Of a stretch of 24,611 bases of DNA, positions 2,264-21,987 are shown piece after piece. A program made the position numbers and the translations under genes. Each line of letters opens with the position of its first letter. The stretch's first letter is position 1. The notes below the pieces were generated by a model. It worked only from the letters and a program-made list of their open reading frames with translations, was not told the origin of the DNA and searched no databases. Source of the stretch: a virus; the IMG/VR virus record IMGVR_UViG_3300022602_001907, positions 1-24,611 of that record. One strand, written 5' to 3'.

Positions 2264-3853
2264 ATGCCAACAAAAATTGAAAAAATTGTCATCGTAGGTG
2301 GCGGATCTGCAGGCTGGATGACAGCCGCGCACCTTATTAAATTTTTTCCAAATAAAGAAATAGTAGTAGTAGAAAGTCCCGATATTCCTATTGTAGGAGT
2401 AGGGGAAAGCACCTTAGGACAAATTAGAAATTGGACACATGCTTTAGGCATTGATGAAAACGATTTTATGAAGTATACTAACGCTTCATATAAAATGAGT
2501 ATTAAATTTACAGATTTTTATAAAAAAGATGCTGGCGCTTTTCATTATCCGTTTGGTGTTCCTGTGTTTGCCGACGCTCCAGAAGAATTACTCGAATGGC
2601 AAGCTAAAAAGATAATCTATCCTGATACTCCGGTAGAAGACTATGCTAGAACCTACTACCCAATTATGCCATTAGTCGAAAACAACAAGTATACTAAGAA
2701 TCATAACGGGGATTTAGACGGTTTTAGATCTGATCTAAGTGTTGCGTATCACTTTGATTCTGCACTATTTGGACAATGGTTAAAGAATAATTTTTGTTTG
2801 CCTAAAGGTGTAAAAAATATAAGACAAACAGTTGTTAACATTCCTACTAATGAAAATGGAATCGAGCATTTAGAACTAGATAACGGTGACATTGTTACTG
2901 CTGATTTATTCATTGATTGCACTGGTTGGAAAAGTCTGCTGTTATCTGAAACTCTAAAAGAGCCTTTTATTTCTTGGAATGATGTATTGCCGAATAATAA
3001 AGCATGGGCTACTCAAGTAGAATATAAAGAAAAAGAAAAAGAATTAGAAGGTTATACTAATTGCACAGCTATAGGTAACGGATGGGTCTGGAATATTCCT
3101 TTGTGGAGCCGACTAGGAACTGGATATGTCTATAGCGATCAATTTATCAGCGATGATGATGCATTAGAAGAATTTAAACAACACTTAATGAGTGACAAAA
3201 TGACTGTTCCTAGAACACGGGAAGAAGTAGATTCATACTCATATAGAAATATTAAAATGCGTGTAGGAATTCATGAACGCACTTGGGTTAAAAATGTCGT
3301 TGCAATCGGTCTAAGCGCAGGATTTATTGAACCACTAGAAAGCAATGGGTTGTTTACAGTCCACGAGTTTTTAACATCTTTAGTTAATACACTTGAACGT
3401 GAATACATTAGTCAATGGGATAAAGATGTTTATAGTAGTGCTTGTAAAGGTATGTTTACTAACTTTGCTGAATTTGTAGGGCTACATTATGCATTAAGTG
3501 TAAGAGACGACACTCCCTATTGGAGAGCCGCTACTAGTAAAACTTATAGCAATGATATGGTTCATAGAATTCCAACCACCCATATAGGATTTAATGACTT
3601 AGCAGAGAGAAAAATGTTTAAATTTGCACACGAGGGTGGCGGAGGTATACATTGTATTGCAACTGGTATGCATTATTTTATGCTACATCGTCATCAATTA
3701 TTGTTTGCAGAAAATCATAGGGGCATCGATGCGAAGCTTAGATGTGACGAATTTGTTTTTAGAAGAAAATTTTTGCAACAAAAATGGCAAGCAGTTGCAG
3801 ATCGATCTCCTACTATCTATCAATATTTAAAAGATAACATTCATAATGAATAA
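2264..3853 (+). CDS. Flavin-dependent tryptophan-type halogenase
   Basis: A 529-aa protein with every hallmark of the PrnA/RebH family, at the family's usual length. The FAD-binding GxGxxG is G12-x-G14-x-x-G17. GVGES follows at 45-49. The catalytic lysine is K77 in NASYKMSIKF, matching K79 of PrnA/RebH. WxWxIP is intact (W274, W276, P279). The active-site glutamate is E359 in IEPLES, matching E346 of PrnA. The known reaction uses FADH2, O2 and halide to form HOCl or HOBr, relayed by the lysine to an aromatic carbon. No flavin reductase is encoded nearby, so reduced FAD would come from the host. GAGGG lies 6 nt before the ATG. It heads the rightward operon; its last 8 nt overlap the next gene. 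It is the most canonical of the five halogenase homologues here. Confidence 0.9.
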   Translation: MPTKIEKIVIVGGGSAGWMTAAHLIKFFPNKEIVVVESPDIPIVGVGESTLGQIRNWTHALGIDENDFMKYTNASYKMSIKFTDFYKKDAGAFHYPFGVPVFADAPEELLEWQAKKIIYPDTPVEDYARTYYPIMPLVENNKYTKNHNGDLDGFRSDLSVAYHFDSALFGQWLKNNFCLPKGVKNIRQTVVNIPTNENGIEHLELDNGDIVTADLFIDCTGWKSLLLSETLKEPFISWNDVLPNNKAWATQVEYKEKEKELEGYTNCTAIGNGWVWNIPLWSRLGTGYVYSDQFISDDDALEEFKQHLMSDKMTVPRTREEVDSYSYRNIKMRVGIHERTWVKNVVAIGLSAGFIEPLESNGLFTVHEFLTSLVNTLEREYISQWDKDVYSSACKGMFTNFAEFVGLHYALSVRDDTPYWRAATSKTYSNDMVHRIPTTHIGFNDLAERKMFKFAHEGGGGIHCIATGMHYFMLHRHQLLFAENHRGIDAKLRCDEFVFRRKFLQQKWQAVADRSPTIYQYLKDNIHNE

Positions 3854-4460
3854 AATGTATCCGTTATTTCCGCAGGCAGTTTTTACTGTAGAATCAACAC
3901 GACCTAGATTCGACAACGTTATTGATTTTTGTAAAACATTAGACTACGGACCAAATGGCGGAGGAAATTTTACCAGTGTAAATACAGATATTTTATCTCA
4001 TACTATGTTTTCCGAGATAAGATCTATGATAGAATCTGCCATAGATGAATATACAAAAAATATAATGGAATGGAAAGCTAACTTTTACATTATACAGTCT
4101 TGGATAAACAAAAATCCTCCTAATACTGCCCATCACGAGCATTATCATGCTAATAGTTTTATCAGCGGTGTATTTTATCTTAAACCATTAAGACCGGATT
4201 TTCTAACGTTTGGCAGTGGAAAACAGTTAACTCTTGCCCCTCCGACATTAAATTTTAACATGTGGAACAGTCAAAAATACGATTTGCCATTAAACGATAA
4301 TATGATTGTTTTATTTCCGTCAACTCTATTACACAGTGTAGGAGAAAACAAAACTAATGAAACTAGATTTAGCCTTGCATTTAATGTATTCTTAGAAGGA
4401 GTGCTAGGCGCAGAAAAAGTAACAAGCCAACTAAGATTAACTAAAAAGGTCATGATATGA
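3846..4460 (+). CDS. Fe(II)/2-oxoglutarate oxygenase (2OG-Fe(II)_Oxy_5-like), array copy 1
   Basis: A 204-aa protein starting MYPLFPQAVF, as the next oxygenase and the one at 5990 do in similar form. The metal-binding region is HHEHYHANS (H96-S104), with H99-x-H101 aligning to the family H-x-H-x-N-S motif, then SGVFYL. The distal histidine is H163 in LFPSTLLHSV, and R174 in ETRFSLAFN is the likely 2-oxoglutarate ligand. This pattern fits the TIGR02466/Oxy_5 family of putative hydroxylases. The start overlaps the end of the halogenase by 8 nt (ATGAATAA); a second ATG three codons in is possible. There is no clear Shine-Dalgarno, so translation is probably coupled. Its C-terminus overlaps the next gene by ATGA. 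The substrate is unknown; hydroxylation next to a halogenase suggests shared tailoring. Confidence 0.75.
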   Translation: MNKMYPLFPQAVFTVESTRPRFDNVIDFCKTLDYGPNGGGNFTSVNTDILSHTMFSEIRSMIESAIDEYTKNIMEWKANFYIIQSWINKNPPNTAHHEHYHANSFISGVFYLKPLRPDFLTFGSGKQLTLAPPTLNFNMWNSQKYDLPLNDNMIVLFPSTLLHSVGENKTNETRFSLAFNVFLEGVLGAEKVTSQLRLTKKVMI

Positions 4461-5050
4461 GTGAAATTTATCCCTTATTTTCTACTCCGGTTTTTAAAAC
4501 TCATCACGACGGTCCGCCATTTGAAGACCTTATTAAATTTTGTAAAAGCTCTGAAACTAGAGTTAACAAGGGGAATAACTATACCAGTTTAAACAACTAC
4601 GCACTAAATGATCCAATATTTTTAAAATTAAGAAAGTTTATAGAAGCCTCTATAAAAGAATACACTGATTCAATGGAATGGCAAAATGAATTTTACATTA
4701 CACAATCATGGTTTAATGTTAATCCGACAGGAACTGGTCATCATGAGCACTATCATTTAAACAGTATTGTTAGTGGATCTTTTTATCTAAATGCTGGGAA
4801 GAACGATTTTATAACATTTCATAGTGGACAACGACCAGCTATTGGGCTTACTACAAATGCGTTTAACATAATGAATTCTCCTTCATGGGATCTAGAAGTA
4901 GCTACTAATGATTTAATACTATTTCCCTCACAGACATTGCATAGTGTAAAACCAAATCCAGAACCGTATGAAAGAATTAGTTTAGCATTTAACACGTTTG
5001 TTAGAGGCACATTAGGATTAAACGAAAATTTAACACATCTAAAATTATAA
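4457..5050 (+). CDS. Fe(II)/2-oxoglutarate oxygenase (2OG-Fe(II)_Oxy_5-like), array copy 2
   Basis: A 197-aa close paralogue of the preceding gene, apparently a tandem duplicate. It keeps the same order of features: an N-terminal EIYPLFSTPVF, ITQSW, HHEHYHLNS (H98-x-H100), SGSFYL, LFPSQTLHSV with distal H162, and R173 in ERISLAFNTF. All predicted cofactor ligands remain, so it should be active. It starts in an ATGA overlap with copy 1, which indicates translational coupling. It is followed after 10 nt by the glycosyltransferase gene. It may differ from copy 1 in substrate or regiochemistry. Confidence 0.75.
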   Translation: MSEIYPLFSTPVFKTHHDGPPFEDLIKFCKSSETRVNKGNNYTSLNNYALNDPIFLKLRKFIEASIKEYTDSMEWQNEFYITQSWFNVNPTGTGHHEHYHLNSIVSGSFYLNAGKNDFITFHSGQRPAIGLTTNAFNIMNSPSWDLEVATNDLILFPSQTLHSVKPNPEPYERISLAFNTFVRGTLGLNENLTHLKL

Positions 5051-5060
5051 AGAGAAAAAC

Positions 5061-5993
5061 ATGAAAAGAAATACAGCATTTTTAATCAATGGCGGAGCAG
5101 GAAGAGTGTTATGTGCTATTCCAGCTTTAGAGCTATATGAAAAAGAACATCCAGAAGATGACTTTATAATTGTAGTTGAATATTTTATTGAATTATTTAA
5201 AGGTCATCCTACTTTATATAAAAGATGTTATGATCACCATCATAGACATTTGTATGAAGATAAACTTAAAAATATGAATGTTTATTTTCCGGAATGTTAC
5301 CATGTATGGGAGTATTTTAATCAGCAAGCATCTATTAGTCAATCTTTTGATTTATTACTTAATAAAAAAGGCGTAAGAGATTTACCAGTGCCTACACTTG
5401 TGCTGAGTAACGAAGAAACACAAGGCGGATTAGAGACTGTAAAAACAATTAAAAAAGATTTTCAAAACAAAAAAGCAATTGTGTTTCAACCATTTGGCAG
5501 AGGATCAACAATGACTCCTGGTTCTATAAATAACGATCCCCAAGGTCGATCGTTTTCAATGGCCGATGCTGTGCAAATTATTAGACGTTTGCAACGAAAA
5601 TATACAGTAATTGTCATGTCTGAAAATCAAATTGACTTTAAAATATTTGGAATAAAAGAAGTAGTTCCTCAGCTAACTAATATGTCATTGCGCCGATGGA
5701 TGGGTGTTATTAATGCCGCTGATTATTTCTTAGGGTGTGATAGTGTAGGACAGCATTTTGCAGTTTCTTTAGGTAAAAAAGCTACAGTAGTGCTAGGTGG
5801 AACTTTTAAAGAAAATGTTTCATATCCAAATTACAAAAATCTCAATATCATAGATTTAGGAGAAGGCAAACGTATGTATGCACCTATACGTATGTGTTCA
5901 AGCGAAATAGCAGATACTAATAATGAAAAATTGATATCGTTAACCGAAGCTAGCCTAAATAAAATTATTGCAACAGTTGATCAAAATATATGA
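5061..5993 (+). CDS. GT9-like (heptosyltransferase-type) glycosyltransferase
   Basis: A 310-aa protein with a GT-B layout. The N-terminus, FLINGGAGRVLCAIPAL (residues 7-23), resembles the GT9 start (G..GD.l...P.l). A middle segment, IVFQPFGRG (about 140-148), and a C-terminal nucleotide-sugar-binding segment, GCDSVGQHFAVSLGKKATVV (225-244), follow; the D/S-x-x-x-H pattern is typical of ADP-heptose:LPS heptosyltransferase relatives. It would transfer a sugar from a nucleotide donor; donor and acceptor cannot be read from the sequence. AGAG precedes the ATG by about 9 nt. The next gene starts in an ATGA overlap. With the carbamoyltransferase two genes on, it suggests that at least part of the island product is glycosylated. 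Confidence 0.68.
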   Translation: MKRNTAFLINGGAGRVLCAIPALELYEKEHPEDDFIIVVEYFIELFKGHPTLYKRCYDHHHRHLYEDKLKNMNVYFPECYHVWEYFNQQASISQSFDLLLNKKGVRDLPVPTLVLSNEETQGGLETVKTIKKDFQNKKAIVFQPFGRGSTMTPGSINNDPQGRSFSMADAVQIIRRLQRKYTVIVMSENQIDFKIFGIKEVVPQLTNMSLRRWMGVINAADYFLGCDSVGQHFAVSLGKKATVVLGGTFKENVSYPNYKNLNIIDLGEGKRMYAPIRMCSSEIADTNNEKLISLTEASLNKIIATVDQNI

Positions 5994-6601
5994 GACCTTC
6001 TGAAATTTATCCATTATTCCCTACAGTAGTTTATAAAAATAAATTAGAAAGGACCTTATCTCAAGAAGAATTAGATTTTATCTATTCTTCTGAAGTATTT
6101 GGGCAAAGTCTTGGAAATGAAATTTCAACTAGTATGTGGATTTTAGAAAAGGAAGAATTGCAACAGTTGAAGCAAGATTTCATGGAGCATGTAAACATTT
6201 ATTTAAATGAAATAATGATGGTAGATGCGGAGTTGTATATAACCAATTCTTGGATTAATGTTACTGGCCATAGCCAACAACATTCTCTACATAATCATAA
6301 TAATAGTATTATATCAGGAGTGTTTTATCTAAATGCTTCAGATAGCCAGCCCACTATTACATTTAATAGAATGATTCCACCGTTTTTCTTAACTATGAGA
6401 TCCAAAGAATATACAATGTTTAATTCGATAGAATGGAATATTCCCGTAGAAGATAACTCTATTATAATTTTTCCATCGCAATGCTACCATTTTGTTAAGC
6501 AGAATCTAAGTAAAAATCAAAGAATAAGCATTGCGTTTAATACATTTCTTAAGGGATCTATTGGCGGAGATTCCGAAGGTGCAGATTTAATTTTAAGGTA
6601 A
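5990..6601 (+). CDS. Fe(II)/2-oxoglutarate oxygenase (2OG-Fe(II)_Oxy_5-like), array copy 3
   Basis: A 203-aa third member of the oxygenase set that includes 3846 and 4457, separated from them by the glycosyltransferase. It begins SEIYPLFPTVVY. The metal site is LHNHNNS with H101-x-H103, followed by ISGVFYL. Distal H167 lies in IIFPSQCYHFV and R178 in QRISIAFNTF. The region between residues 20 and 80 is more divergent than in the other two copies, so a different substrate pocket is likely. It starts in ATGA with the glycosyltransferase stop. After an 8-nt gap comes the carbamoyltransferase. Confidence 0.74.
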   Translation: MRPSEIYPLFPTVVYKNKLERTLSQEELDFIYSSEVFGQSLGNEISTSMWILEKEELQQLKQDFMEHVNIYLNEIMMVDAELYITNSWINVTGHSQQHSLHNHNNSIISGVFYLNASDSQPTITFNRMIPPFFLTMRSKEYTMFNSIEWNIPVEDNSIIIFPSQCYHFVKQNLSKNQRISIAFNTFLKGSIGGDSEGADLILR

Positions 6602-6609
6602 CTAATATA

Positions 6610-8397
6610 ATGACAACATGGATAGCAGGAATTACCCGAGGACATAACGCAAGTGTATGTCTACTTAAAGATGGAGAAGTTGTTTTTTCTTTAGAGGAAG
6701 AACGTCTTAGTCGTCAAAAATATGACGGTGGCCCCCTTGCATGTATGGTAAAGATTTTAGAATATACCGATCGTTTAGACTATCTTGTAATTGCACATAC
6801 TCAAGCATTATCAATGACAGCTGGTAGAATTGATTTTACAGGCGATGATATGTATACAGGACTTGCTAGGAAATTAGGATTAATTGATCGTAAGCTAGAT
6901 ATTTTTAATCATCCACAGGTTATAGATTTATCATATAAACATCACGCATTACACGCGGCTTGCGCATTTTATCGATCAGGTTGGGATGATGCAGTTGCAT
7001 TAGTAGTAGATGGCGCTGGAACATTTATTCCTATGACCCTTGAAGGCACAGAAGCTATGACGTGGGAAACTGAATCTATATTATCTTGTTCATACCCAGC
7101 TAACTTTAAGACATTATTTAAACATTACGGTGCTAGAGATGTAATTAGCACAATGTTTACACAAGCTCCTTCTGACTTTATCGGCGAAGAAGGGGATACT
7201 CATTACGCAATTTTTACAGATCGTGCCGGGATTACAAAAACATACGAAGCAGTAACACAATATTGCGGATGGAATTCTATTGAAGCTGGTAAAACGATGG
7301 GACTATTCCCATACGGCAAACCAAACCCTACTATTCCAAAATTATTTGAATCTGATAGTATGGAGCCGTTATCAAACAGAAATGTAATATTACCTACGTA
7401 TCCAAACGGTGCTAAAGTCAACGCTGGTGCTTATGCAAGTTTAAAAGAACTACCTGCAGAAGGCACTGATCCTACTCTAATGCAAAATCGTAGAGATCTT
7501 GCCTATGCTGTTCAAACACAAACTCAAGAACAAGTGTTAAATTTAATTTACAAAGCAGTAGCATTGTCAGGTAAGCGACGTGTTGTTATTTCTGGCGGTT
7601 ATGGTTTAAACTGTGTTGCTAATTACTATTATCTCGATAAATTAAGAAATGATGGCATTGAAATATATGTAGAACCTATTAGTAATGACTCAGGAACTGC
7701 AATAGGTGCCGCTTTAATGGTATGGTATGAGCAGACGCAGAGCACACAAATAGGCAAACATGATACCCTGTATCTTGGCCCTAAGCATAATTATACTACA
7801 GATCAAGTAAATGATATTGCGTTAACTGCCGGAGTTGAGATTTCAGATGCTACCTATAGTGATATTGTTAAGTTATTAACTAATAAAAATATTGTAACAC
7901 TATATCAAGGTTCGAGTGAAAATGGTCCTCGAGCTCTAGGAAATAGGTCAGTATTATTTGACCCTAGATTTAAAGACGGTAAAGATTTTGTTAATAACGT
8001 TAAACATCGAGAATATTTTAGACCTTTTGCTGGCAGTATTCTGCAAGAACATGTAAACGAGTGGTTTGATTTAAGAGGTATGAAAGATAGTCCATTTATG
8101 ATGTATGCAGTAAACTGCCAACCGGGTATTGAAGAACTTATCCCAAGCATTATCCATGTAGACGGAACTTGTCGCATACAAACTGTTACTGAAGAACAAA
8201 ATTATCATTACTATAATTTAATAAAAGAATTTTATAATCAAACAGGCTGTCCTATATTGTTCAACACTAGTTTTAATCTAGGTGGTGAACCGTTAGTTGA
8301 AACATTAGAGGATGCTATATGGACTTTACAAAATTCAGATATTGAATATTTGTTTTTACCTGAATTTAACAAACTAATTACTGTGAGAAATGTATGA
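6610..8397 (+). CDS. NodU/CmcH-family O-carbamoyltransferase
   Basis: A 595-aa protein of the usual length for the family. The N-terminal Kae1-like domain starts WIAGITRGHNAS (GHNAS 11-15) and includes EEERLSRQK, KHHALHAACAFY with H111, H112 and H115 as likely metal ligands, and VVDGAGT near 133-139. GGYGLNCVANY (about 329-339) is the second conserved block of this domain. The C-terminal YrdC-like domain has GPRALGNRS (439-447), EYFRPFAGSI and NTSFNLGGEP. These enzymes use carbamoyl phosphate and ATP to make a carbamoyl-adenylate and transfer the carbamoyl group to a hydroxyl, usually on a sugar or antibiotic scaffold (NodU, TobZ, CmcH). All catalytic blocks look intact. AAGG lies about 12 nt upstream. 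The next gene overlaps by ATGA. Confidence 0.92.
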   Translation: MTTWIAGITRGHNASVCLLKDGEVVFSLEEERLSRQKYDGGPLACMVKILEYTDRLDYLVIAHTQALSMTAGRIDFTGDDMYTGLARKLGLIDRKLDIFNHPQVIDLSYKHHALHAACAFYRSGWDDAVALVVDGAGTFIPMTLEGTEAMTWETESILSCSYPANFKTLFKHYGARDVISTMFTQAPSDFIGEEGDTHYAIFTDRAGITKTYEAVTQYCGWNSIEAGKTMGLFPYGKPNPTIPKLFESDSMEPLSNRNVILPTYPNGAKVNAGAYASLKELPAEGTDPTLMQNRRDLAYAVQTQTQEQVLNLIYKAVALSGKRRVVISGGYGLNCVANYYYLDKLRNDGIEIYVEPISNDSGTAIGAALMVWYEQTQSTQIGKHDTLYLGPKHNYTTDQVNDIALTAGVEISDATYSDIVKLLTNKNIVTLYQGSSENGPRALGNRSVLFDPRFKDGKDFVNNVKHREYFRPFAGSILQEHVNEWFDLRGMKDSPFMMYAVNCQPGIEELIPSIIHVDGTCRIQTVTEEQNYHYYNLIKEFYNQTGCPILFNTSFNLGGEPLVETLEDAIWTLQNSDIEYLFLPEFNKLITVRNV

Positions 8398-9584
8398 AGA
8401 TAGCTGTATTAGGTGTAGGAACTGCTGGCATAATGTCTTTATGCCATACATTAAAATGGATATGCCCTGAAGGCAGCACAGTTACTTCAATTTATGATCC
8501 TTCTGTGGCTATATTAGGTATAGGTGAAACATCACAACCTAATTTTGTTAAATCATTATTTGAAGGCGCCGATTTTAATTTTTTAATAGATGCTCATGAG
8601 CTTGATGCAACTATTAAATTAGGAGCAAGTTACAAAAAATGGAGAGATACTGATTTCGATATGCCAATGGAGGCTCCAGCTTACGGCATACATTTTAATA
8701 ATTTTAAATTAAGAGATTTTTGTTTTAAACGGTTTAAAGAAAAATGGGGTAGTAAGTTTAGTATAATAGAAGGTAAGGTAGACAAAGCAGTTAGCAAAAA
8801 ATCACATGCTGAAGTAGTTGTTAACGGCAGATCTTATAGTTTTGATTATGTTATTGATTGCCGTGGGTATCCTCCCGATCTAACTGATTATACAGTATTG
8901 GATGATTTTACAGTTAATCATTGTTTAGTTAATATTATAGAAAAACCAGGCACTTGGAATAGCAGTATTAATCAAGCTACTACACACGGCTGGATGTTTG
9001 GTATTCCATTGACTACACGTCAAGGCTGGGGCTATCTATACAATGATAAGATAACAACTAGGGAAGAAGCAGTTGGTGAAATACAGAGTTTGTTTGCTGA
9101 TCCTAATCCTACACTTAAAGAATTTACTTTTAAAAGCTATTATGCTAACACGTTTTTTGATGGACGCATTTTAAAGAATGGAAACAGAGCGTTTTTCTTT
9201 GAACCAGCAGAAGGCATGGCTGGATTTTTCTATGACACTACATTAAGATATTTTTATGATTTTGTATCAGGTCAAACTAATGTTGATGTATTAAACGAAA
9301 ATTTATCAAGAACTGCTAACGATATAGAAAATTTTATCTACTTTTTGTATCACGGCGGAAGCACTTTTAATAGCAAATTTTGGAATATTACCAAAGAAAA
9401 ATGCACTAAAAAATTACGAGTAAAATCTGCTCATCGTTGGAGGATGACTTTATTAAATATCAAAAAAGCAATAGCTCATCCAGAGTTGAATATAAGCACA
9501 GACGAAACTGGACGCTGGTCTAAGGATCTATGGATTCGCTGGGCAGATAATTTAGGTTACGATTACTTTAAGGAAAAAGAATGA
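8394..9584 (+). CDS. Short flavin-dependent halogenase homologue, copy 1
   Basis: A 396-aa protein, over 100 residues shorter than PrnA-type halogenases. GxGxxG is at 7-12 (GVGTAG), GIGET at 42-46. The catalytic-lysine position is K75 in DATIKLGASY. The WxWxIP region reads GWMFGIPL (W200, F202), so the second Trp is Phe. The Glu position is E273 in FEPAEGMAG, where the usual Ser after Glu is Gly. It is very similar to the next gene, sharing HFNNFK, DCRGYP, TRQGWGYLYND, ITTREEAV and FFDGRILKNGNRA. The shortening is spread between the Lys site and WxWxIP and at the C-terminus. The fold and catalytic pair suggest a halogenase, but motif changes leave the activity open. It starts and ends in ATGA overlaps. 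Confidence 0.75.
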   Translation: MKIAVLGVGTAGIMSLCHTLKWICPEGSTVTSIYDPSVAILGIGETSQPNFVKSLFEGADFNFLIDAHELDATIKLGASYKKWRDTDFDMPMEAPAYGIHFNNFKLRDFCFKRFKEKWGSKFSIIEGKVDKAVSKKSHAEVVVNGRSYSFDYVIDCRGYPPDLTDYTVLDDFTVNHCLVNIIEKPGTWNSSINQATTHGWMFGIPLTTRQGWGYLYNDKITTREEAVGEIQSLFADPNPTLKEFTFKSYYANTFFDGRILKNGNRAFFFEPAEGMAGFFYDTTLRYFYDFVSGQTNVDVLNENLSRTANDIENFIYFLYHGGSTFNSKFWNITKEKCTKKLRVKSAHRWRMTLLNIKKAIAHPELNISTDETGRWSKDLWIRWADNLGYDYFKEKE

Positions 9585-10792
9585 GAATAGCCGTTGTGGG
9601 TGTAGGAACAGCTGGATTAATGTCGTTGTGTCATATGCTCGCACACGCTCCTGAAAATACTACTGTAGTATCTATATACGATCCTAAGATTAAAATTTTA
9701 GGAATTGGTGAAAGTTCAACATTTGGATTTCCAAAAATATTATTCCAAGGAACCGGATTTAATTTACCTGAATTTGCCAACGAACTAGATGCTACTGCAA
9801 AATTTGGAGTTACATATAAGGGCTGGAGAGAAAACGATTTTGAATCTGTAATTCAGCCTGGTGATTATGCGCTACATTTTAACAATTTTAAAATGAAAGA
9901 ATTTTGTTTTAAAAGATTTAAAGAATTATGGTTAGACAAGTTTCAAACTATAGAAGGCACTGTATTAGATGTTAAAAACAATGGTGCATATGGTAGTGTA
10001 TACTTAGAAAATTCTGAAGAAAAATTTGACCTTATTATTGATTGCCGTGGATATCCAACAGACTATTCTGATTATAACCTAATTGAAAATATGCCGGTTA
10101 ACCATGCGTTGGTCCATATGATACCAGAACCGGGAACTTGGAATACTACAATTCACCAGGCAACACGTAATGGCTGGATGTTTGGTATTCCTCTTAAAAC
10201 ACGTCAAGGCTGGGGATATTTGTATAATGATACAATTACAACCCGTGAAGAAGCTGTTGAAGAAATAGCTGAAATTTTTAATACTACTCCTGATAAATTA
10301 GATCTTAGAGAATTTCCGTTTAAACCTTACTTTGCTAAAACTTTTTTTGATGGTCGTATTTTAAAGAACGGAAATCGTGCATTATTTTTTGAACCGCTAG
10401 AAGCATTATCTGGATTCTTTTATGAAATGGCCCTGAGAACTGTGTTTGATTATTATACTGGGGTGATGCCAGGTGTTGACAAAGTTAATGATCATTTAAC
10501 AACACTTTCTCAAAATTTAGAAAACTTTTATCATTACGTTTATCACGGCGGTAGTGTGCATGATACAAAATTTTGGCAAACAGTTACAAAGACATCTGCT
10601 GAAAAGTTAAAAAATAATAAACGATGGGAAGATACTGTTGCTGAAGTTAATGGCTGTATTGTAGGAAATGATTTGATTGAAAAACCAATTGGTCTTTGGT
10701 TTACTGAAAAATGGATTGATTGGGAAGATAAATTTGGTTATTCTTATTTTAAACCTCACAGAGGTAGTATATATTTTAAAAGATATCCATGA
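9581..10792 (+). CDS. Short flavin-dependent halogenase homologue, copy 2
   Basis: A 403-aa tandem paralogue of the preceding gene. GVGTAG is at 7-12, GIGES at 41-45, the catalytic-lysine position K74 in DATAKFGVTY, GWMFGIPL with W199 and F201, and E274 in FEPLEALSG. It shares long blocks with copy 1, including DCRGYP, GTWN..I.QAT, TRQGWGYLYND and YHGGS, so the pair probably arose by duplication within this lineage. It differs from copy 1 mainly at 45-65, 80-95 and the C-terminal 60 residues. Two similar short enzymes side by side could be sequential halogenases or a heterodimer; the sequence does not tell which. ATGA overlaps join it to both neighbours. Confidence 0.75.
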   Translation: MRIAVVGVGTAGLMSLCHMLAHAPENTTVVSIYDPKIKILGIGESSTFGFPKILFQGTGFNLPEFANELDATAKFGVTYKGWRENDFESVIQPGDYALHFNNFKMKEFCFKRFKELWLDKFQTIEGTVLDVKNNGAYGSVYLENSEEKFDLIIDCRGYPTDYSDYNLIENMPVNHALVHMIPEPGTWNTTIHQATRNGWMFGIPLKTRQGWGYLYNDTITTREEAVEEIAEIFNTTPDKLDLREFPFKPYFAKTFFDGRILKNGNRALFFEPLEALSGFFYEMALRTVFDYYTGVMPGVDKVNDHLTTLSQNLENFYHYVYHGGSVHDTKFWQTVTKTSAEKLKNNKRWEDTVAEVNGCIVGNDLIEKPIGLWFTEKWIDWEDKFGYSYFKPHRGSIYFKRYP

Positions 10793-11295
10793 TAAAACAT
10801 TTTACAGAATTTACTACACCCTGGCTTCATGTTAAGGCTAAAGAACAAGTATTAAGCCCTTTTGTCGACTGGCATTTTCCAGGTAATGGCGGATATCATA
10901 ATGATATTGATAAAGCATGTTTTGCAAAATTAGTGTTTGACGCTGAAAGAAATTACAGTGACTGGTCCGGAGTAGATAGTTTATCTTATGTGTTAGATAA
11001 TTGGTTGTATAATAATCGGTGGTTTAAATTTAAAAGACTAAATCGATGTATTTTAAATTTTTATACCGCAGGGCAGACTATAGGTTGGCACACTGACCAC
11101 GCTAATCAAGATCATTACACATTAATTTACTATGTTAATGATGCAGACGGTGGAACTGAATTTAAAAATGCTTCATTCCCGCATAAAGAAAACACTGGAA
11201 TATTGTTAAATTCAAATGAATCTCATAAGAATATCGAATCTACCGTTCCGAGAAGAATATCTGTAGCATGGATTATTGTTGGAGATATAGTCTAA
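10789..11295 (+). CDS. Fe(II)/2-oxoglutarate oxygenase (prolyl 4-hydroxylase-like)
   Basis: A 168-aa single-domain dioxygenase of the P4H-type/2OG-FeII_Oxy group, a different subfamily from the Oxy_5-like copies. The facial triad is clear: H101-x-D103 in GWHTDH and distal H146 in NESHKN. R155 or R156 in PRRISVAW would bind 2-oxoglutarate. DADGGTEF and GILLNS are typical of the strand between them. The iron ligand is a true H-x-D rather than the H-x-H of the other set. This implies Fe(II) hydroxylation chemistry; halogenating relatives have Ala or Gly in place of the Asp, so this is not a 2OG halogenase. It starts in ATGA with the halogenase stop, and its TAA overlaps the next ATG (TAATG). Confidence 0.85.
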   Translation: MIKHFTEFTTPWLHVKAKEQVLSPFVDWHFPGNGGYHNDIDKACFAKLVFDAERNYSDWSGVDSLSYVLDNWLYNNRWFKFKRLNRCILNFYTAGQTIGWHTDHANQDHYTLIYYVNDADGGTEFKNASFPHKENTGILLNSNESHKNIESTVPRRISVAWIIVGDIV

Positions 11296-12056
11296 TGTTC
11301 TTTTTTAAAAAATCATCACTGATATTAGATTGCTTTACTTATGATCCAGTGATAGCAAAAACAGCTCCAATTTTGCCTGCGATTAGATTTTATCCTCAAT
11401 GGATACGAGACTTACCGACTTATCGTATACATGAAAAACAAATACCAGGTGGGCATCTTCATCACGTTCCAGAAGGGACTATGAAAGGATGCCCGGGAGT
11501 AATTGATTATTTTAAAACAGGCTTTATTGCACCGTTGTGGGTAGATGCTAGTATTATAATTACTGCTGATGGAAGGTATTCTTATACTAGTGCAGACAGC
11601 CCTTTTAGTCTAGAAACACATTGGCCCGGACAATGGGATGGGTTCAACGGATACATGCATATGAAAATGATATTCCCTTGGCACATTGAAGAAAAAACTG
11701 GAGCAAAGTTTTTATTACAAAAGCCTATGTGGACAACAAATAACGATCCTGTTATGATTAACAAGATAGTGTCAGCTGGCGGAGTAATTGATTTTAATAG
11801 CCAACATTGTTTACATCTACATACTTTCGTTGAAATCCCTCCAGTTAATCAAGAATTTATTTGGAATGTTGGCATGCCATTATTACATATGATTCCATTA
11901 ACTGATAAAAAAATTGAAATTAAAACACATGTGATTGATGAAGTAGAATGGATTAAGAAAACTCAAGTATCGACTGGAGCTAAAACATTTCTTAAACCGT
12001 CATTAAAACGAGAATTACTTGAAAAATCAGTCAATGGAGGATGTCCATTTAAATGA
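11295..12056 (+). CDS. Uncharacterised island protein, copy 2
   Basis: A 253-aa paralogue of the protein at 745-1503. I chose the ATG at 11295, not the in-frame ATG at 11268, because 11295 gives MFFFKKSSLILDCFT, matching the paralogue's first residues, and sits in a TAATG overlap with GGAG 10 nt upstream. Shared positions include C13, MKGCPG.ID with C66, PLW.D, QWDGF, FPWH, G.PLLHMIPL and the C-terminal CPF with C250. No signal peptide, membrane helix or known catalytic motif is visible. As with copy 1, the gene immediately upstream is a 2-oxoglutarate oxygenase. It may be a partner or substrate-presenting protein, or an enzyme of unknown type; I do not assign a function. Confidence 0.78.
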   Translation: MFFFKKSSLILDCFTYDPVIAKTAPILPAIRFYPQWIRDLPTYRIHEKQIPGGHLHHVPEGTMKGCPGVIDYFKTGFIAPLWVDASIIITADGRYSYTSADSPFSLETHWPGQWDGFNGYMHMKMIFPWHIEEKTGAKFLLQKPMWTTNNDPVMINKIVSAGGVIDFNSQHCLHLHTFVEIPPVNQEFIWNVGMPLLHMIPLTDKKIEIKTHVIDEVEWIKKTQVSTGAKTFLKPSLKRELLEKSVNGGCPFK

Positions 12057-13519
12057 AAACTGATACAATTGCAGTAGTAGGTAGCGGGACAGCCGGGTTA
12101 GTTTCTGCTCTTATTTTAAAAACAGCATTTCCTGAAAAACAAATAGATATTATATGTTCTAAACGTATTGGTATTATTGGAGTAGGTGAAGGATCAACTG
12201 AACATTGGGAAACTTTTGCGGCCTACGTTGGAATTAATACCGCAGAATTGATTAAAGAATGTGATGCAACTTTTAAAATAGGTATTGTGTTTAAAGATTG
12301 GGGAGTTCCTGATTACATGCACAGCATACAAGATGGTTACAGTTTAATTGCAAATCAATATCCATTTGTCTACAGCAGATTAATTAGTCAAGGTCTTGAT
12401 TCTAAAAGCATGAGTGGAAAGATTTTCTGGGAAAATAAAATACAAAATTGGTTTTTAAATAATAATCAAACACCAGTTGCACAATATCATTTTAATACTT
12501 TTAAACTTAATGAATTTCTAACAAAGATTGCATTAGAAAAAGGTATAACAATTCACCATGACGAAATTACTAGTATAAATTTAGCAGACGATGGTAGCAT
12601 TGACACTATTACCAGTTCTGAATTTACTTACGTTTACGATTTCTATGTAGATTGCACAGGGTTTAAAAAGTTTCTAATTGGCAAATTAGGTGCAAAATGG
12701 GTAAGTCATAGCGACTATCTTAAAACAAATAGTGCCTTAGTGTTTCAAACTGAAGATACTGACAACTACAACATGTGGTCTTTGTCACAGGCAATGAAAT
12801 ATGGTTGGCTATTTAGAACTCCTACATACGGTCGTTGGGGTAATGGTTACATTTATGACAGTGAATTTTTAACTCCAGAACAGGCTCAAGCAGAAGTTGA
12901 GGAGTTTTTAGGACATAAAATTAAAGTAGGACAACATATTAAGTTTGATCCAGGTGCCCTAGATAGAGCGTGGATTAAGAACTGTTGCGCCATAGGACTT
13001 AGTAGTAGTTTTGTAGAACCTTTAGAAGCCAGTAGTATTGGAGCTAGTATCCAACAGAGTTTTATGCTTTCTCAACGATTAGTAAATTATAACGAATCTG
13101 TTATAGATAGGTATAATGAAATGTTTACTGATATTGTGCATAATATACGAGATTTTATTCTATTGCATTTTGTTTGCCCAAGAAGAGATACTGAATTTTG
13201 GCGTAAAGTTGCAGAAGTAAAATTACCACCTGAGCTAGATCGTAATTTAAAAATTTGGAAAGATAAATTACCAATCGAAGATGACTTTAAAGGTAGTAGT
13301 CGACAACTACTATTTAAAGCACACCATTTTTTACTAGTTCTTCAGGGGTTGCAATGGTTTGATAAAGATAGTATACTAGAAGAGTTCAAATCTTTGCCAT
13401 ATCACATTCAGCAAGAAGCTGATATTGTAATTAAAGATCTAGAATATGGCAACAGAATAGATCAGTTAGATACTTCAACTCATAAAGAAATGCTAACTGT
13501 TATTAGGAATAACACATGA
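12053..13519 (+). CDS. Flavin-dependent halogenase homologue with WxFxTP motif
   Basis: A 488-aa protein, near the normal halogenase length. GSGTAG is at 10-15, GVGEGS at 43-48, and the catalytic-lysine position is K75 in DATFKIGIVFKDW. The dinucleotide-domain block reads VDCTGF at 199-204. The WxWxIP region is GWLFRTPTYGRWGNGY (W252, F254, T256, P257), so both the second Trp and the Ile are changed. The Glu is E325 in SSFVEPLEASS, with the family's Ser one residue further along. The C-terminal helical region is full length. It belongs to the same broad group as the next gene, though the two are not close duplicates. Start and stop are ATGA overlaps, so it is co-translated with its neighbours. 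Confidence 0.82.
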   Translation: MKTDTIAVVGSGTAGLVSALILKTAFPEKQIDIICSKRIGIIGVGEGSTEHWETFAAYVGINTAELIKECDATFKIGIVFKDWGVPDYMHSIQDGYSLIANQYPFVYSRLISQGLDSKSMSGKIFWENKIQNWFLNNNQTPVAQYHFNTFKLNEFLTKIALEKGITIHHDEITSINLADDGSIDTITSSEFTYVYDFYVDCTGFKKFLIGKLGAKWVSHSDYLKTNSALVFQTEDTDNYNMWSLSQAMKYGWLFRTPTYGRWGNGYIYDSEFLTPEQAQAEVEEFLGHKIKVGQHIKFDPGALDRAWIKNCCAIGLSSSFVEPLEASSIGASIQQSFMLSQRLVNYNESVIDRYNEMFTDIVHNIRDFILLHFVCPRRDTEFWRKVAEVKLPPELDRNLKIWKDKLPIEDDFKGSSRQLLFKAHHFLLVLQGLQWFDKDSILEEFKSLPYHIQQEADIVIKDLEYGNRIDQLDTSTHKEMLTVIRNNT

Positions 13520-15009
13520 AATTTAAAATTATTGTAGTCGGTGGTGGCACAGCTGGAGTTATGGCTGCTACCTATTTTAGAGCTTATTGGGGAGATCTTG
13601 CTGATATTACACTTATCTATGATCACAAAAAACCAGGTATTGGTGTAGGTGAAAGTTTAACTCCTATTTTTGATAATTATTTAAAGGCAGTTGGAGTAAC
13701 CACACATGATTTAATTAAACACTGTAACGCAACAATTAAATTAGGACTTAAATTTACCAAGTGGGCTGATGAAGACAGTGTCGGCTGGCACAGTTTTCCA
13801 CATAACGAAGCATGGGGACAAGTTGATCAAGTATTATACGATTTTTGTGCAGTTGATGCATATGATATAGTTAATGGTCAATACGATGGCGGCTATAATT
13901 ATAGCACATACTATATAAAGAATAATTCGTTACCATCGGCGGACGACACTACTTATAGACACGCATTACATGTTGATGCTACTGTTTTAAGTAAATTTGT
14001 ATTGGATAGATATCGCAGTGCGCTTACGGTTATAGATGGGGTTGTTAATCAAGTTGATGTTGAAAATAATTCTATAAAATCGATTCAATTAGAAGATGGC
14101 AGACAATTTACAGCAGATATGTTCATTGATGCCAGCGGATTTGAAAGAGTATTATTTAAAAATTTAAAAGCAGAATGGGTTGACACTAGCAAATACCTAC
14201 CGACCAACAGAACAATACCAAACCCAATATTTAAAGAATTTGACACACTTCCTTGCTATACTACAGCAGAAGCATCTAAAAATGGTTGGATATTAGATGT
14301 TCCTTTGTCAAATAGACGAGGAACAGGGTATACATACTGTAGCGAATTTACTTCAGATGAAGAAGCTAAACAAGAATTCAATAAATGGTTAATAAAAACT
14401 CACGGGGTCGAGCTAGCAAGCGATCGAGTATTAAAATTTTCAACTGGATATTATAAACAAGAATGGGTAGGAAATTGCGTGTGTATTGGCCTAGCTAGTA
14501 GCTTTGTTGAGCCTCTCGAGGCAACAAATTTGCATCATACATGGATACAACTGGATATGATAACTAGATTGTATTCTGGTCGTCATACACAATTTAATCA
14601 AAAAAGTTATAATGACCGTATGAATTTTTTGCTAGAAGACAGCTTTAGGTATATTCGTTGGTTCTATCATACTGGCCGACAGGATTCTGATTTCTGGAAA
14701 TACATGTCAAACAATGTTCCAGACTACATAAAAGACATGGAAATATTAATTGCTGAAGGTGGATATTTAACCAAAGATCACTTTGCAGGAACAGGAAGTT
14801 TTATGTTCGAAGCGGCCGACTATAATATTGTTGCTTATTATAATAACCATTATAAGAACCTAGAAGGAATTTGGGACACGTTAACTGCAAGACATTTATA
14901 TGAGCATGCTGGACATGCTTCTAAACGCATACGAGAATTAAAACATAATTATCAAAATTTAGCTGTTGATCATAAAAAATGGATCAACTATATCAAGGAA
15001 CAAAAATGA
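13516..15009 (+). CDS. Flavin-dependent halogenase homologue with WxLxVP motif
   Basis: A 497-aa protein. GGGTAG is at 9-14, GVGESLTP at 43-50, the catalytic-lysine position K75 in NATIKLGLKFTKW, and the FAD-domain block IDASGF at 204-209. The WxWxIP region reads NGWILDVPLSNRRGTGY (W258, L260, P263), replacing the second Trp by Leu. E335 in SSFVEPLEATN is the active-site Glu position. Length and C-terminal helical part match the PrnA class. Residues 85-140 are unusually rich in Tyr, Trp and Asp and differ from the other copies, so the substrate pocket is likely distinct. It is the last halogenase of the operon; it begins in ATGA with the previous gene and ends in ATGA with the oxygenase at 15006. 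Confidence 0.82.
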   Translation: MKFKIIVVGGGTAGVMAATYFRAYWGDLADITLIYDHKKPGIGVGESLTPIFDNYLKAVGVTTHDLIKHCNATIKLGLKFTKWADEDSVGWHSFPHNEAWGQVDQVLYDFCAVDAYDIVNGQYDGGYNYSTYYIKNNSLPSADDTTYRHALHVDATVLSKFVLDRYRSALTVIDGVVNQVDVENNSIKSIQLEDGRQFTADMFIDASGFERVLFKNLKAEWVDTSKYLPTNRTIPNPIFKEFDTLPCYTTAEASKNGWILDVPLSNRRGTGYTYCSEFTSDEEAKQEFNKWLIKTHGVELASDRVLKFSTGYYKQEWVGNCVCIGLASSFVEPLEATNLHHTWIQLDMITRLYSGRHTQFNQKSYNDRMNFLLEDSFRYIRWFYHTGRQDSDFWKYMSNNVPDYIKDMEILIAEGGYLTKDHFAGTGSFMFEAADYNIVAYYNNHYKNLEGIWDTLTARHLYEHAGHASKRIRELKHNYQNLAVDHKKWINYIKEQK

Positions 15010-15620
15010 AAATATATGATAACATACTGTCTGAATCAGTATTCGATTTATTATGCGATAAGGTATTAGGATTTGAATTTGATTGGCACTGGAGTGCTAT
15101 AACATATCCGTTTGGCAGACTTAATACTAATAATGTTCACCCGTTTAATTTAACTCATTACCCTATTGCCAACGGCAGACCATGCACACAGTTTGGTGAA
15201 TTTTTAGAACCGTTGTTATACGATGCGATTGATAAAACAGGCGAGCGCATTAAAGAAATATTTAGAGTAAGAGTAGTTAACCAGCCTAGGACTTTTGGTC
15301 AATATACCAATGACCCACACATTGATTTGCCATGGCAACACAATGTTGGTATCATATATCTCAATGATACTAACAGCCCTACGGTTATCTATAAAGAAAA
15401 ATTTCCATTTGATACAGATCAATCTAAGTGGGATGATTTCCCACAAGCTAGTTTTGGATATTTTAAAGATAATTTCTTAGGACGTGAAACTATTATACAC
15501 AAGGTTGTTCCTAAACGTAATACATTACTGACCTTTGATGGCGGACATTATCACGCAAGTGCTACCCCAGACGATGTTGATCGTCGTGTTATTATTAATT
15601 TTACCTATTCTACTAGATAA
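15006..15620 (+). CDS. Fe(II)/2-oxoglutarate oxygenase, third subtype
   Basis: A 204-aa protein when started at the ATG at 15006, in the ATGA overlap; an in-frame ATG at 14979 lies inside the halogenase gene and adds nine residues unlikely to be real. The metal motif is H105-x-D107 in DPHIDLPW, followed by GIIYLND. The distal histidine is H181 or H183 in GGHYHAS, and R193 or R194 in RRVIINF would bind 2-oxoglutarate. It resembles the 2OG oxygenases found in many marine phages that have a HID motif and an FDGG.YH.S segment. It is the last gene of the rightward operon and its final 8 nt overlap the end of the NUDIX gene on the other strand. I see no clear terminator between them. Confidence 0.78.
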   Translation: MKIYDNILSESVFDLLCDKVLGFEFDWHWSAITYPFGRLNTNNVHPFNLTHYPIANGRPCTQFGEFLEPLLYDAIDKTGERIKEIFRVRVVNQPRTFGQYTNDPHIDLPWQHNVGIIYLNDTNSPTVIYKEKFPFDTDQSKWDDFPQASFGYFKDNFLGRETIIHKVVPKRNTLLTFDGGHYHASATPDDVDRRVIINFTYSTR

Positions 15621-18964: not shown

Positions 18965-18986
18965 ATATTTATCGTAAGCTAAATAT
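18965..18986. promoter_or_regulatory. Divergent late-promoter-like boxes
   Basis: ATATTTA (18965-18971) and TAAATAT (18980-18986) form an inverted repeat with an 8-bp centre. On the plus strand this gives GCTAAATA, like the CTAAATA late box of cyanophages, 17 nt before gp13's ATG. On the minus strand it gives GATAAATA, like T4's TATAAATA, 5 nt before the gp14 ATG. The minus-strand box would give an almost leaderless mRNA, so it is the less certain of the two. In AT-rich DNA such boxes also arise by chance. Confidence 0.45.
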
Positions 18987-19002: not shown

Positions 19003-19791
19003 ATGGCTGATTCGCTACCTACAAACAATACTACTGATTCTACAACCGAACGAAATGCAGTCTTTGCCTACATAAAGACCATGCTTGGCGACGGTATGAT
19101 TGATGTAGAATTAGATCCTGCGCACTACGAGTTAGCACTAGATAGAGCTCTTACACTTTATCGTCAAAAAAGCTCAAACGCTGTTGAGGAAAGTTACAGC
19201 TTTTTAGAGCTTATACAAGATCAAAACGAATATCGTTTACCGGATGAAATTATTGAAGTCCGCGAAGTATTTCGTAGAGCTATTGGTTCTAGAAGTGGCC
19301 TAGGCGCAGGCGGAACACTATTCGAGCCGTTTAACTTGGCCTACACTAACACATACATGATGTCTGGTAGTATGATGGGCGGATTGGCAACTTATGAGAT
19401 GTTTGCCGGCTATCAAAAGCTAGTAGGACGTATGTTTGGTAGTTATATTGAATATAACTGGAAAAGAACAAGTCACATTTTAGATATCCTACAAAGACCA
19501 TTTGCCCAGGGCGAACAAGTATTGCTAAGAACCTACAACTATCGTCCTGACTGGGTGTTATTGCAAGACATTTATGCAAAGCAATGGTTAAGGGATTATG
19601 CACTTGCAGTAGCCAAACAAATACTAGGACAAGCACGTAGCAAATTTGGATCAATTGCTGGTCCAGGATCGCCTATTACCCTTAACGGAACTGCATTGAT
19701 AGCAGAAAGTAAAGAAGAAATGACACAGCTTACTAAAGATTTACAAAACTTAGAAGCAGGCGGTATACCATATACGTTTGTATTAGGATAA
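19003..19791 (+). CDS. 13: T4 gp13-like neck protein
   Basis: A 262-aa protein matching the gp13 neck family of T4-like phages in length and layout. The N-terminal helical part has FAYIKTMLGDGMIDVELDP and the YRLPDEIIEV block. A glycine/methionine-rich middle (about 96-130) follows. The C-terminal block is strongly conserved in cyanophage-type gp13: DIYAKQWLRDYALAVAK, LGQARSKFGSIAGPG and LNGTALIAESKEEM. gp13 and gp14 complete the head and form the tail attachment ring. AGGAGAG lies 6 nt before the ATG. The gene is divergent from gp14 across a 41-bp interval that holds late-promoter-like boxes. The ANL-like gene follows after 4 nt. Confidence 0.82.
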   Translation: MADSLPTNNTTDSTTERNAVFAYIKTMLGDGMIDVELDPAHYELALDRALTLYRQKSSNAVEESYSFLELIQDQNEYRLPDEIIEVREVFRRAIGSRSGLGAGGTLFEPFNLAYTNTYMMSGSMMGGLATYEMFAGYQKLVGRMFGSYIEYNWKRTSHILDILQRPFAQGEQVLLRTYNYRPDWVLLQDIYAKQWLRDYALAVAKQILGQARSKFGSIAGPGSPITLNGTALIAESKEEMTQLTKDLQNLEAGGIPYTFVLG

Positions 19792-19795
19792 TAAT

Positions 19796-20995
19796 ATGTC
19801 AGCAATTACTAGAGAGATATTAAATCCAAATTTAACTATTGAAAGTTCAATAACACATGCTGACGGGTCAATACAAAAAGTTATAAAATCTTACAATGAA
19901 ATTACTGTTGATATCGACTGCGCTAAGACATACTTAATTAATGAAAGAAACGCTCAAGCAGGGCAAAAAGTATTGTTATGTGAAAATGCCTGGCCTCATT
20001 TTTTAGTTTGGTTTATTGCCTGCTCGGAATTAGGTATGGGTTTTGTATTTTTAGATAGAATCAATGCAAATAATTCTGAGAGTTTAGTAAACAAACTAAA
20101 CGGATATGGAAAAATTGATCACGTAATCGTCTGGCCTTACGGAACATTAGCTAAGAATTTAGGACCTTATAATATAGATTCTATTCATGTTGGTGTTTAT
20201 AGTTTTTATAGATCCCCGCTTACTAGACCAGACGAACATGCAGATGTATTTTTAGCAACTCCTGAATCAAAATTATTTTATAGGATGACAGATGGCATTC
20301 CTAAAATAATAGAGCATAGCCATCAATATGTATATGACTTACTAGAAAGAAATGCAAAACTTTATAATTTAAAAGAAAATGATTCTTGTTTACATACTAC
20401 TGGATTTCATTTAGGTTTTAGTCCAGCTTCTTATATTTTACCAGTTATAAAATATTGTGCAACACATTATTTTGTTGTCGACATTGGAAATAATGTAAAA
20501 AATATTTTACAATTAAAAAATATTACACATAATATGCAAAATGGTTTTGATAACCAACCTATATTTGAAACTTTAGAAACTCTTGGCCCGGTGCTATTAA
20601 ACAACAAATGTTTAGATAACTTTTTTGGTGTATATCTTGGACCCGGAAATTTCTTAACAATAAGATTGCCAGATACTACTGATGTAATTACCAATTCTGT
20701 GTTTTCAAAAGAAAACGATGAATTTATATTAGTAGATACTCCCAATGTTGTAGTTATAAACGGAACTCTTATTAATACTTCTGCATTAGTCTCTGTAGTA
20801 GCAAGTTTTCTCAAAGCAACGCCAGGGTTAGATTTTAATTTATTTGTCGATGGTGATAGAATCTATATAACAGCAACAACTTCATTAAATTTAACATTAT
20901 TAAATTCGTATATTGTTACAAGTTTATTGTTGACTGAATATATTATAAATCAACAAGCTAGTAGTGCAAACCTATATTGGCTAAAAATTTCTTGA
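19796..20995 (+). CDS. Degenerate AMP-binding (ANL superfamily) homologue
   Basis: A 399-aa protein that looks like a shortened adenylate-forming enzyme. Residues 55-87 read like the N-terminal A-domain block (AGQKVLLCENAWPHFLVWF...GMGFVFLD). Residues 162-176 (YRMTDGIPKIIEHSH) match the A3 phosphate loop [ST]SGTTG.PK.V.HSH, keeping D/G, PK and HSH but losing most of the Ser/Thr/Gly signature. LGPGNFLTIRLP and NVVVINGTLINTSAL resemble the later GR-dd-ING hinge region. A C-terminal lysine block (A10) is not recognisable, and the family is usually 500-600 aa. It is therefore probably a non-catalytic or repurposed ANL protein. AGGA lies 6 nt before the ATG, and it is co-directional with gp13, 4 nt downstream. 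Alternatively it could be an unrelated structural protein. Confidence 0.5.
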   Translation: MSAITREILNPNLTIESSITHADGSIQKVIKSYNEITVDIDCAKTYLINERNAQAGQKVLLCENAWPHFLVWFIACSELGMGFVFLDRINANNSESLVNKLNGYGKIDHVIVWPYGTLAKNLGPYNIDSIHVGVYSFYRSPLTRPDEHADVFLATPESKLFYRMTDGIPKIIEHSHQYVYDLLERNAKLYNLKENDSCLHTTGFHLGFSPASYILPVIKYCATHYFVVDIGNNVKNILQLKNITHNMQNGFDNQPIFETLETLGPVLLNNKCLDNFFGVYLGPGNFLTIRLPDTTDVITNSVFSKENDEFILVDTPNVVVINGTLINTSALVSVVASFLKATPGLDFNLFVDGDRIYITATTSLNLTLLNSYIVTSLLLTEYIINQQASSANLYWLKIS

Positions 20996-21020
20996 CCTTG
21001 TAACAAAACTGTTATATACT
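20992..21020 (+). promoter_or_regulatory. Sigma70-type promoter of the dNMP kinase
   Basis: TTGACC (20992-20997), a 17-bp spacer and TATACT (21015-21020) form a near-consensus promoter overlapping the ANL-like gene's stop. A start near 21027 leaves about 15 nt of leader containing AGGGGG before the ATG at 21042. The -10 is identical to that of the halogenase operon. Confidence 0.75.
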
Positions 21021-21041: not shown

Positions 21042-21746
21042 ATGATCATAGGTGTGTGTGGGTTTATCGGTTCCGGCAAAGATACTATTGCCGATTATTT
21101 GACTAATTTTCACGGTTTTAGGCGTGAAAGTTTTGCCAACAGTTTAAAAGATGCTGTCAGCATGGTGTTTGGGTGGGATAGAACTATGCTAGAAGGCCGC
21201 ACAAAACAAGCCCGTGATTGGCGCGAACAAGTAGATCCTTGGTGGGCAGAACGCTTAAACATGCCACATTTAACACCACGTTGGGTGCTACAACACTGGG
21301 GCACTGAAGTTTGTCGTAATGGCTTCCACGATGACATGTGGATTGCTAGCTTAGAGAATAAACTACGCAACTCAAAAGATGACATAGTCATTAGTGACTG
21401 CCGTTTTCCTAACGAGATTAAATCAATTAAAGATGCTGGCGGGATTGTTATTCGTGTAAAACGTGGGCCCGAGCCTGAATGGTATCGAGACGCCGCAGAT
21501 ATGAATGCCGGCGAACATTGTATGAATTGGATGCTGGCTAAAAATCGTATGCAAAAACTAGGTATTCATGCTAGCGAAACTGCTTGGGTTGGCACCAAAT
21601 TTGACTACGTATTGGATAATAATGAAACTATTGACGACTTGTATAATCAAATTAAGAGTGTTATAAATCAGGCACTAGGTCGCCCTGCTTCCAACGAACT
21701 CCCTCTTTATGAAGGACTCGTTGACAATTTGCACACACAGTCTTGA
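21042..21746 (+). CDS. 1: Deoxynucleoside monophosphate kinase (T4 gp1-like)
   Basis: A 234-aa P-loop kinase. The Walker A motif is GFIGSGKDT (residues 7-15 from the chosen start), followed by FANSLKDAVSMVFGW, LQHWGTEVCR and IVISDCRFPNE, as in the T4 gene 1 dNMP kinase family. It phosphorylates dNMPs to dNDPs to supply nucleotides for phage DNA synthesis. I chose ATG 21042 because AGGGGG precedes it and because an in-frame ATG at 21021 abuts the -10 box and could not be in the transcript. It has its own promoter. Its last 86 nt overlap the HNH gene on the opposite strand, so its C-terminal 28 residues are shared coding sequence. Confidence 0.85.
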   Translation: MIIGVCGFIGSGKDTIADYLTNFHGFRRESFANSLKDAVSMVFGWDRTMLEGRTKQARDWREQVDPWWAERLNMPHLTPRWVLQHWGTEVCRNGFHDDMWIASLENKLRNSKDDIVISDCRFPNEIKSIKDAGGIVIRVKRGPEPEWYRDAADMNAGEHCMNWMLAKNRMQKLGIHASETAWVGTKFDYVLDNNETIDDLYNQIKSVINQALGRPASNELPLYEGLVDNLHTQS

Positions 21747-21987
21747 GATTAGTATGACGACAATTGTTTAAATCACCGTCTACATGAAAGACATTAAACA
21801 CCTCTGCATGAGGTGATCTAAATCCGCACTTATCACAAGAACTCTTTGGTTTATATCCGCTAGTAACCCAACGAGGTAGTTTAACTCCTCGATCACAAGC
21901 ACCGCAATGGCGTCGATAATATGGCTTGCCGTTTTTGTAATAATTAACAGCAACCGGTCTTAATCCGCATGAACATAGTGGTCTCAT
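21661..21987 (-). CDS. HNH endonuclease, small zinc-finger type
   Basis: A 108-aa protein with four Cys pairs: C5/C7, C28/C31, C51/C54 and C85/C88. The C-terminal half reads CDKCGF, then FNVFHVDGDLNNC, then NLKTVCANCQ. This is the HNH zinc fold with catalytic H68, N80 and the C51-C54/C85-C88 zinc knuckles. Small HNH proteins of this kind are common in T4-like phages, usually as homing endonucleases. The gene is convergent with the dNMP kinase and overlaps its 3' end by 86 nt. No good ribosome site is seen before the ATG; an in-frame later start is possible. It could be a free-standing mobile endonuclease or a domesticated one. Confidence 0.78.
   Translation of the reverse strand: MRPLCSCGLRPVAVNYYKNGKPYYRRHCGACDRGVKLPRWVTSGYKPKSSCDKCGFRSPHAEVFNVFHVDGDLNNCRHTNLKTVCANCQRVLHKEGVRWKQGDLVPDL

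Follow-up and report, generated by a model that had tools for sequence, protein, structure and literature searches.

The gp13 to dNMP kinase interval

The window, a 24,611-base virus record from a freshwater phage, comprises T4-like structural genes, including those for a gp15-type sheath stabiliser and a gp13-type neck protein, and a tailoring island at 2264-15620. Outside this island, a reading frame for a 399-residue protein lies between the neck gene and a dNMP kinase gene, with the length and placement that the earlier note had given it:

18980-18985, + strand: TAAATA, T4-late-promoter-like, before gp13, with a divergent partner at 18966-18971 on the - strand (consensus match)
19003-19791, + strand: gp13-like neck protein, ending 4 bases before the ANL frame and probably on the same transcript (ORF list, profile)
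19796-20995, + strand: degenerate ANL (class I adenylate-forming) protein, 399 aa (ORF, fold, homology to intact phage ANLs, dN/dS)
20992-21020, + strand: sigma-70-like TTGACC-17-TATACT ahead of the dNMP kinase (consensus match only)
21042-21746, + strand: dNMP kinase, bounding the accessory slot on the side away from gp13 (PF21448, E 5e-12)

In 500 shuffles of the same bases no open run exceeded 137 codons, whereas this frame has 399. Its GC content of 29.7%, compared with 40% and 43% for the neighbouring genes, reflects an AT-richness expected for an accessory gene. The 4-base spacing from gp13 and the TAAATA pair, the latter a consensus match only, suggest late co-expression with gp13, and the kinase may be transcribed separately, given the sigma-70-like site ahead of it. 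A Cys/His-rich frame of 108 aa (21661-21987, - strand) runs antisense to the kinase 3' end and is conserved in several relatives.

Among gp13 loci collected for their resemblance to two gp13 proteins, a sample that is not a census, the gp13-kinase interval is shorter than 150 bases in 64 of 94 distinct intervals, and the remaining intervals hold mixed cargo, comprising (i) ANL genes, (ii) ClpS adaptors, (iii) 2OG oxygenases, and (iv) fibre-like proteins. ClpS-like adaptor genes occupy the slot in locus L019 (3984-4415, by Pfam match) and, by sequence likeness, in L070 (2799-3197) and L127 (6754-7173). An intact ANL sits in the same slot in L083. A small DUF6356-like frame precedes the ANL gene in L051 (2683-2937), L083 (7697-7951, below the cut-off) and L086 (7766-8020), with none in the window. 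Intact ANL relatives are also found in other neighbourhoods; the intact ANL of L088 clusters with a TauD-type oxygenase, an Asp/Asn hydroxylase-like protein and a radical SAM protein, with similar frames in L087, L090 and L092.

The position 4 bases past gp13, behind the T4-late-like pair, would suit a repurposed scaffold attached to the virion at its neck or collar, or one that directs virion assembly, rather than an enzyme partner, and fibre-like genes occupy this very slot in other phages. Nevertheless, the slot also accommodates plainly non-structural genes (ClpS, 2OG oxygenases), so that position says little, and, with intact ANL relatives residing elsewhere as well, a virion role is considered unlikely.

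Descent, fold and motif losses

The ANL superfamily (PF00501) comprises acyl/aryl-CoA ligases, NRPS adenylation domains and luciferases. The window protein itself matches PF00501 over residues 32-87 (E 1.3e-3, 18 bits; Pfam cut-off 29.9), and TIGR01733 likewise gives a sub-threshold match (E 5e-4), reaching E 5e-5 over residues 45-217 of the L002 copy. Relatives were obtained from (i) IMG/VR scans, which gave L001 (99%, a copy cut by the contig end) and L002 (78%); (ii) loci fetched through gp13, which gave L004 (58%), L051 and L074; and (iii) a profile scan, which added L083-L092, L089 being the same contig as L074. Residues 41-80 are identical at 35 of 40 positions between the window protein and L004. 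Many of the phage relatives are clear ANLs, scoring up to 68 bits against the 29.9 cut-off, and the intact copies are those of L083, L084, L085, L087, L088, L090 and L092 and the first copies of L074 and L086. Aligned by hhalign with the set of intact ANLs from uncultivated phages, the window clade gives a probability of 100 and an E of 5e-60 over 381 columns; since these phage proteins lie above the PF00501 cut-off, the homology establishes, independently of how the motifs are read, that the window protein has an intact phage ANL as its ancestor. Direct searches returned nothing significant for the window protein against cultured phages and PDB sequences, for L083, L088 and both L074 proteins against cultured phages, or for L083 against plasmids, and contig pattern scans with the intact relatives, which may miss distant homologues, gave no bacterial relatives.

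The AlphaFold2 model (pLDDT 87, pTM 0.85), computed from a 17-row alignment that includes intact ANLs and hence pulled towards the ANL fold and not independent of homology, places ANL enzymes at the top of the Foldseek ranking (E 1e-13) and superposes in VIA-align with acyl-CoA ligases and NRPS adenylation domains at Z 26; the intact L083 reaches Z 33 in the same kind of comparison. The alignment with 1v26_B (Z 26.2 over 361 residues, model residues 1-398) discloses a large ANL domain and a small C-terminal domain. The structure prediction that the earlier note had proposed as a check thus returns the ANL fold and not an unrelated one, and its reading of an ANL-like order of segments is borne out by the sub-cut-off profile matches, the homology to intact phage ANLs and the fold. 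By fold and homology the window protein belongs to the ANL superfamily, despite its own sub-cut-off PF00501 score.

Among the conserved motifs, A3 is the phosphate-binding loop, A7 carries the ribose-binding Asp, and A8 is the hinge, with a Gly-Arg pair. They were read from a family-only alignment and from an alignment with EntE, FadD, Acs and MenE of E. coli. The intact phage copies retain A3 (e.g., SSGTTGTPK), A5 (e.g., FGCTETSGP; in some FGSQE or FGANE), A7 (GD) and A8 (GR), together with a GIKF-like segment that places an invariant Lys at the A10 lysine. An early reading that these copies are without the A10 lysine was dropped, the GIKF Lys being adjacent to, or coincident with, the A10 Lys in MenE, EntE, FadD and Acs. 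In the window protein the corresponding segments, all on the + strand, are as follows:

19889-20056: best-conserved segment of the N-terminal subdomain, residues 32-87, the sole part that PF00501 detects in this copy (profile match)
20285-20323: A3 relic MTDGIPKIIEHSH, 3 residues shorter than in intact copies, with no Ser/Thr/Gly loop (both alignments)
20534-20545: site, around residues 247-250, where ~40 residues of the intact copies are missing between A4 and A5 (alignments, hhalign)
20561-20596: A5 relic, residues 256-267, IFETLETLGPVL versus IFGCTETTGPLL, with Glu retained and Gly gone (both alignments)
20687-20755: former A7 (TGD to TNS) and A8 hinge (Gly-Arg to Asp-Thr) (both alignments)
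20975-20992: C-terminal YWLKIS, with Lys397 as a candidate for the A10 lysine (family-only alignment)

Opposite the A3 relic MTDGIPKIIEHSH, L083 has STSSGTTDTPKVIPTTQ; where competent enzymes have [ST][SG]G[ST]TGxPK, the window clade reads MTDG---IPK, and both alignments agree with the earlier description of a relic loop devoid of its Ser/Thr/Gly residues. At A5 the clade reads IFETLETLGP, with FETLE against the competent YGxTE, and the window protein has TNS at the ribose-binding Asp of A7 and DT for GR at the A8 hinge. The window protein shares one set of losses with its close kin L001, L002 and L004: the A3 loop, a stretch of ~40 residues separating A4 from A5, the Asp of A7 and the Gly-Arg pair of A8. 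The C-terminal lysine block, formerly described as lacking, is an uncertain case: Lys397 aligns with the invariant Lys462 of L083 in the family-only alignment but is not paired with it in the alignment with the E. coli enzymes.

Residual nucleotide binding may persist, the A5 Glu and perhaps the A10 Lys having survived. The same two residues, together with His200, present in all copies of the family-only alignment, and His176, present in nearly all, could serve an enzyme of altered chemistry, such as acyl transfer or the use of a ready-made adenylate. A nucleotide site broken at four places (the A3 loop, the A7 Asp, the A8 Gly-Arg and the deletion before A5) makes such an enzyme distinctly unlikely.

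The motif losses and the long tree branch to the window lineage (1.52 changes per column) might also be expected of a decaying, non-functional gene. However, the frame is full-length in every copy except where a contig end cuts it, and dN/dS is 0.119 between the window and L002 (dN 0.131, dS 1.098), 0.269 between the window and L004 (dN 0.329, dS 1.224) and 0.238 between L002 and L004, ratios that are approximate because dS is ~1.1-1.3 across pairs. In the three full-length pairs every 80-codon block stays at or below 0.32, and gp13 and the kinase are under tighter constraint than the ANL gene. These values demonstrate that purifying selection continues over the whole ANL reading frame, and gene decay, contradicted by them, is scarcely credible.

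We read the window protein, with a probability of about 0.75, as a pseudoenzyme whose ancestor was an intact ANL adenylating enzyme of a phage. This reading is supported by homology, fold, motif loss and purifying selection, as are the earlier note's terms, "degenerate adenylate-forming enzyme" and "repurposed scaffold". Judged from the motifs, acyl-adenylate formation would have been lost.

Tandem copies and a possible binding role

The slot of three related phages (L051, L074 and L086) holds an intact ANL and a second, degenerate one in tandem. These second copies, including that of L091, resemble the window protein in their slot, the lost A3 loop and the conserved N-terminal subdomain, but have degenerated differently: the C-terminal subdomain and the A5 Glu are gone from them and the A7 Asp remains, whereas the window lineage kept the C-terminal subdomain and lost A7 and A8. 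The tree separates the two degenerate groups (support 100/100 and 100/99); the AU test (p 0.063) does not reject a grouping of the two into one clade. Unlike the window protein, the degenerate copy is in frame with the dNMP kinase in L086 (9272-10990) and L091 (64-1782), giving 572 aa with no intervening stop, as a fusion or with an internal start. The apparent recruitment of dNMP kinases by HMM iteration was discarded as not reflecting homology, the profile having been contaminated by this in-frame ANL-kinase fusion.

As a pseudoenzyme, the window protein would be made late, together with gp13, and would use its conserved N-terminal subdomain to bind a target, whether a partner enzyme, a substrate or a virion component. 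Another ANL-type enzyme would be the likeliest target, in view of the intact and degenerate tandem in the same slot of the three phages. This non-catalytic partner role, the weakest step of the analysis, is tentative, at somewhat short of even odds. The 24.6-kb fragment contains no intact partner ANL, which would have to come from another part of the phage genome or from the host; with no visible partner, and with degeneration unlike that of the paired copies, the pairing may not carry over to the window lineage. A broader proposal, a two-subunit adenylating system of catalytic and dead ANLs in which dead subunits arose more than once, and in which the lone dead subunit of the window would act on a host ANL or on the virion, is speculative and rather improbable. 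The tandem copies suggest that these phages have an uncharacterised activity on some acid substrate, and the occurrence of intact and degenerate copies in one slot offers a way to study an adenylating enzyme turning non-catalytic.

Known relatives and the halogenases

Compared with the ANL superfamily, the window protein shares the fold, the segment order, recognisable A3 and A5 relics and the N-terminal subdomain, but falls below the Pfam cut-off, has lost the elements listed above and is smaller, with 399 aa against 451-652 aa for the compared E. coli ANLs. The intact ANLs of uncultivated phages are homologous to it over the whole length; they differ in retaining A3, A5, A7, A8 and A10, and catalysis is predicted for them. 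The NRPS pseudo-Asub of a keto-acid-selecting module (PDB code, 6ulw) is likewise ANL-derived, and "pseudo" by its entry title, but resides within a multidomain synthetase, whereas the window protein is a free phage protein. The family is not new, since viral ANL proteins are already annotated (UniProt A0A6J5L571 and A0A6J5L563, both fold matches). The titles and abstracts listed by literature searches on phage halogenases and on phage or inactive ANL proteins contain nothing on this ANL family and no description of free-standing phage ANL pseudoenzymes; as far as these searches reach, the free-standing degenerate forms appear to be new.

The earlier note had considered a link with the halogenases of the neighbouring island, through amino-acid activation, and had suggested looking for a carrier protein. 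The window encodes five halogenases, and L086 and L001 also have both an ANL and a halogenase. Nevertheless, the two occur apart: a halogenase is present in 18 of the 87 gp13 loci that extend 3.5 kb or more upstream (counts that include overlapping copies of the same contigs), most of the 18 without an ANL; the ANL-bearing L074 and L083 have no halogenase nearby; and halogenases are absent throughout several ANL-bearing records, one of 93 kb. No carrier protein match (PF00550) was found in 11 ANL-bearing records, two of them of 162 and 93 kb, although these are fragments in which absence is not provable. With the catalytic motifs lost as well, amino-acid activation for the halogenases is highly improbable, and the suggested link is not upheld. 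Among the five halogenase genes, two adjacent tryptophan-halogenase-like genes at 8394-10792 encode proteins of 396 and 403 aa, compared with 488-529 aa for the other three, and show the Pfam match broken into two pieces.
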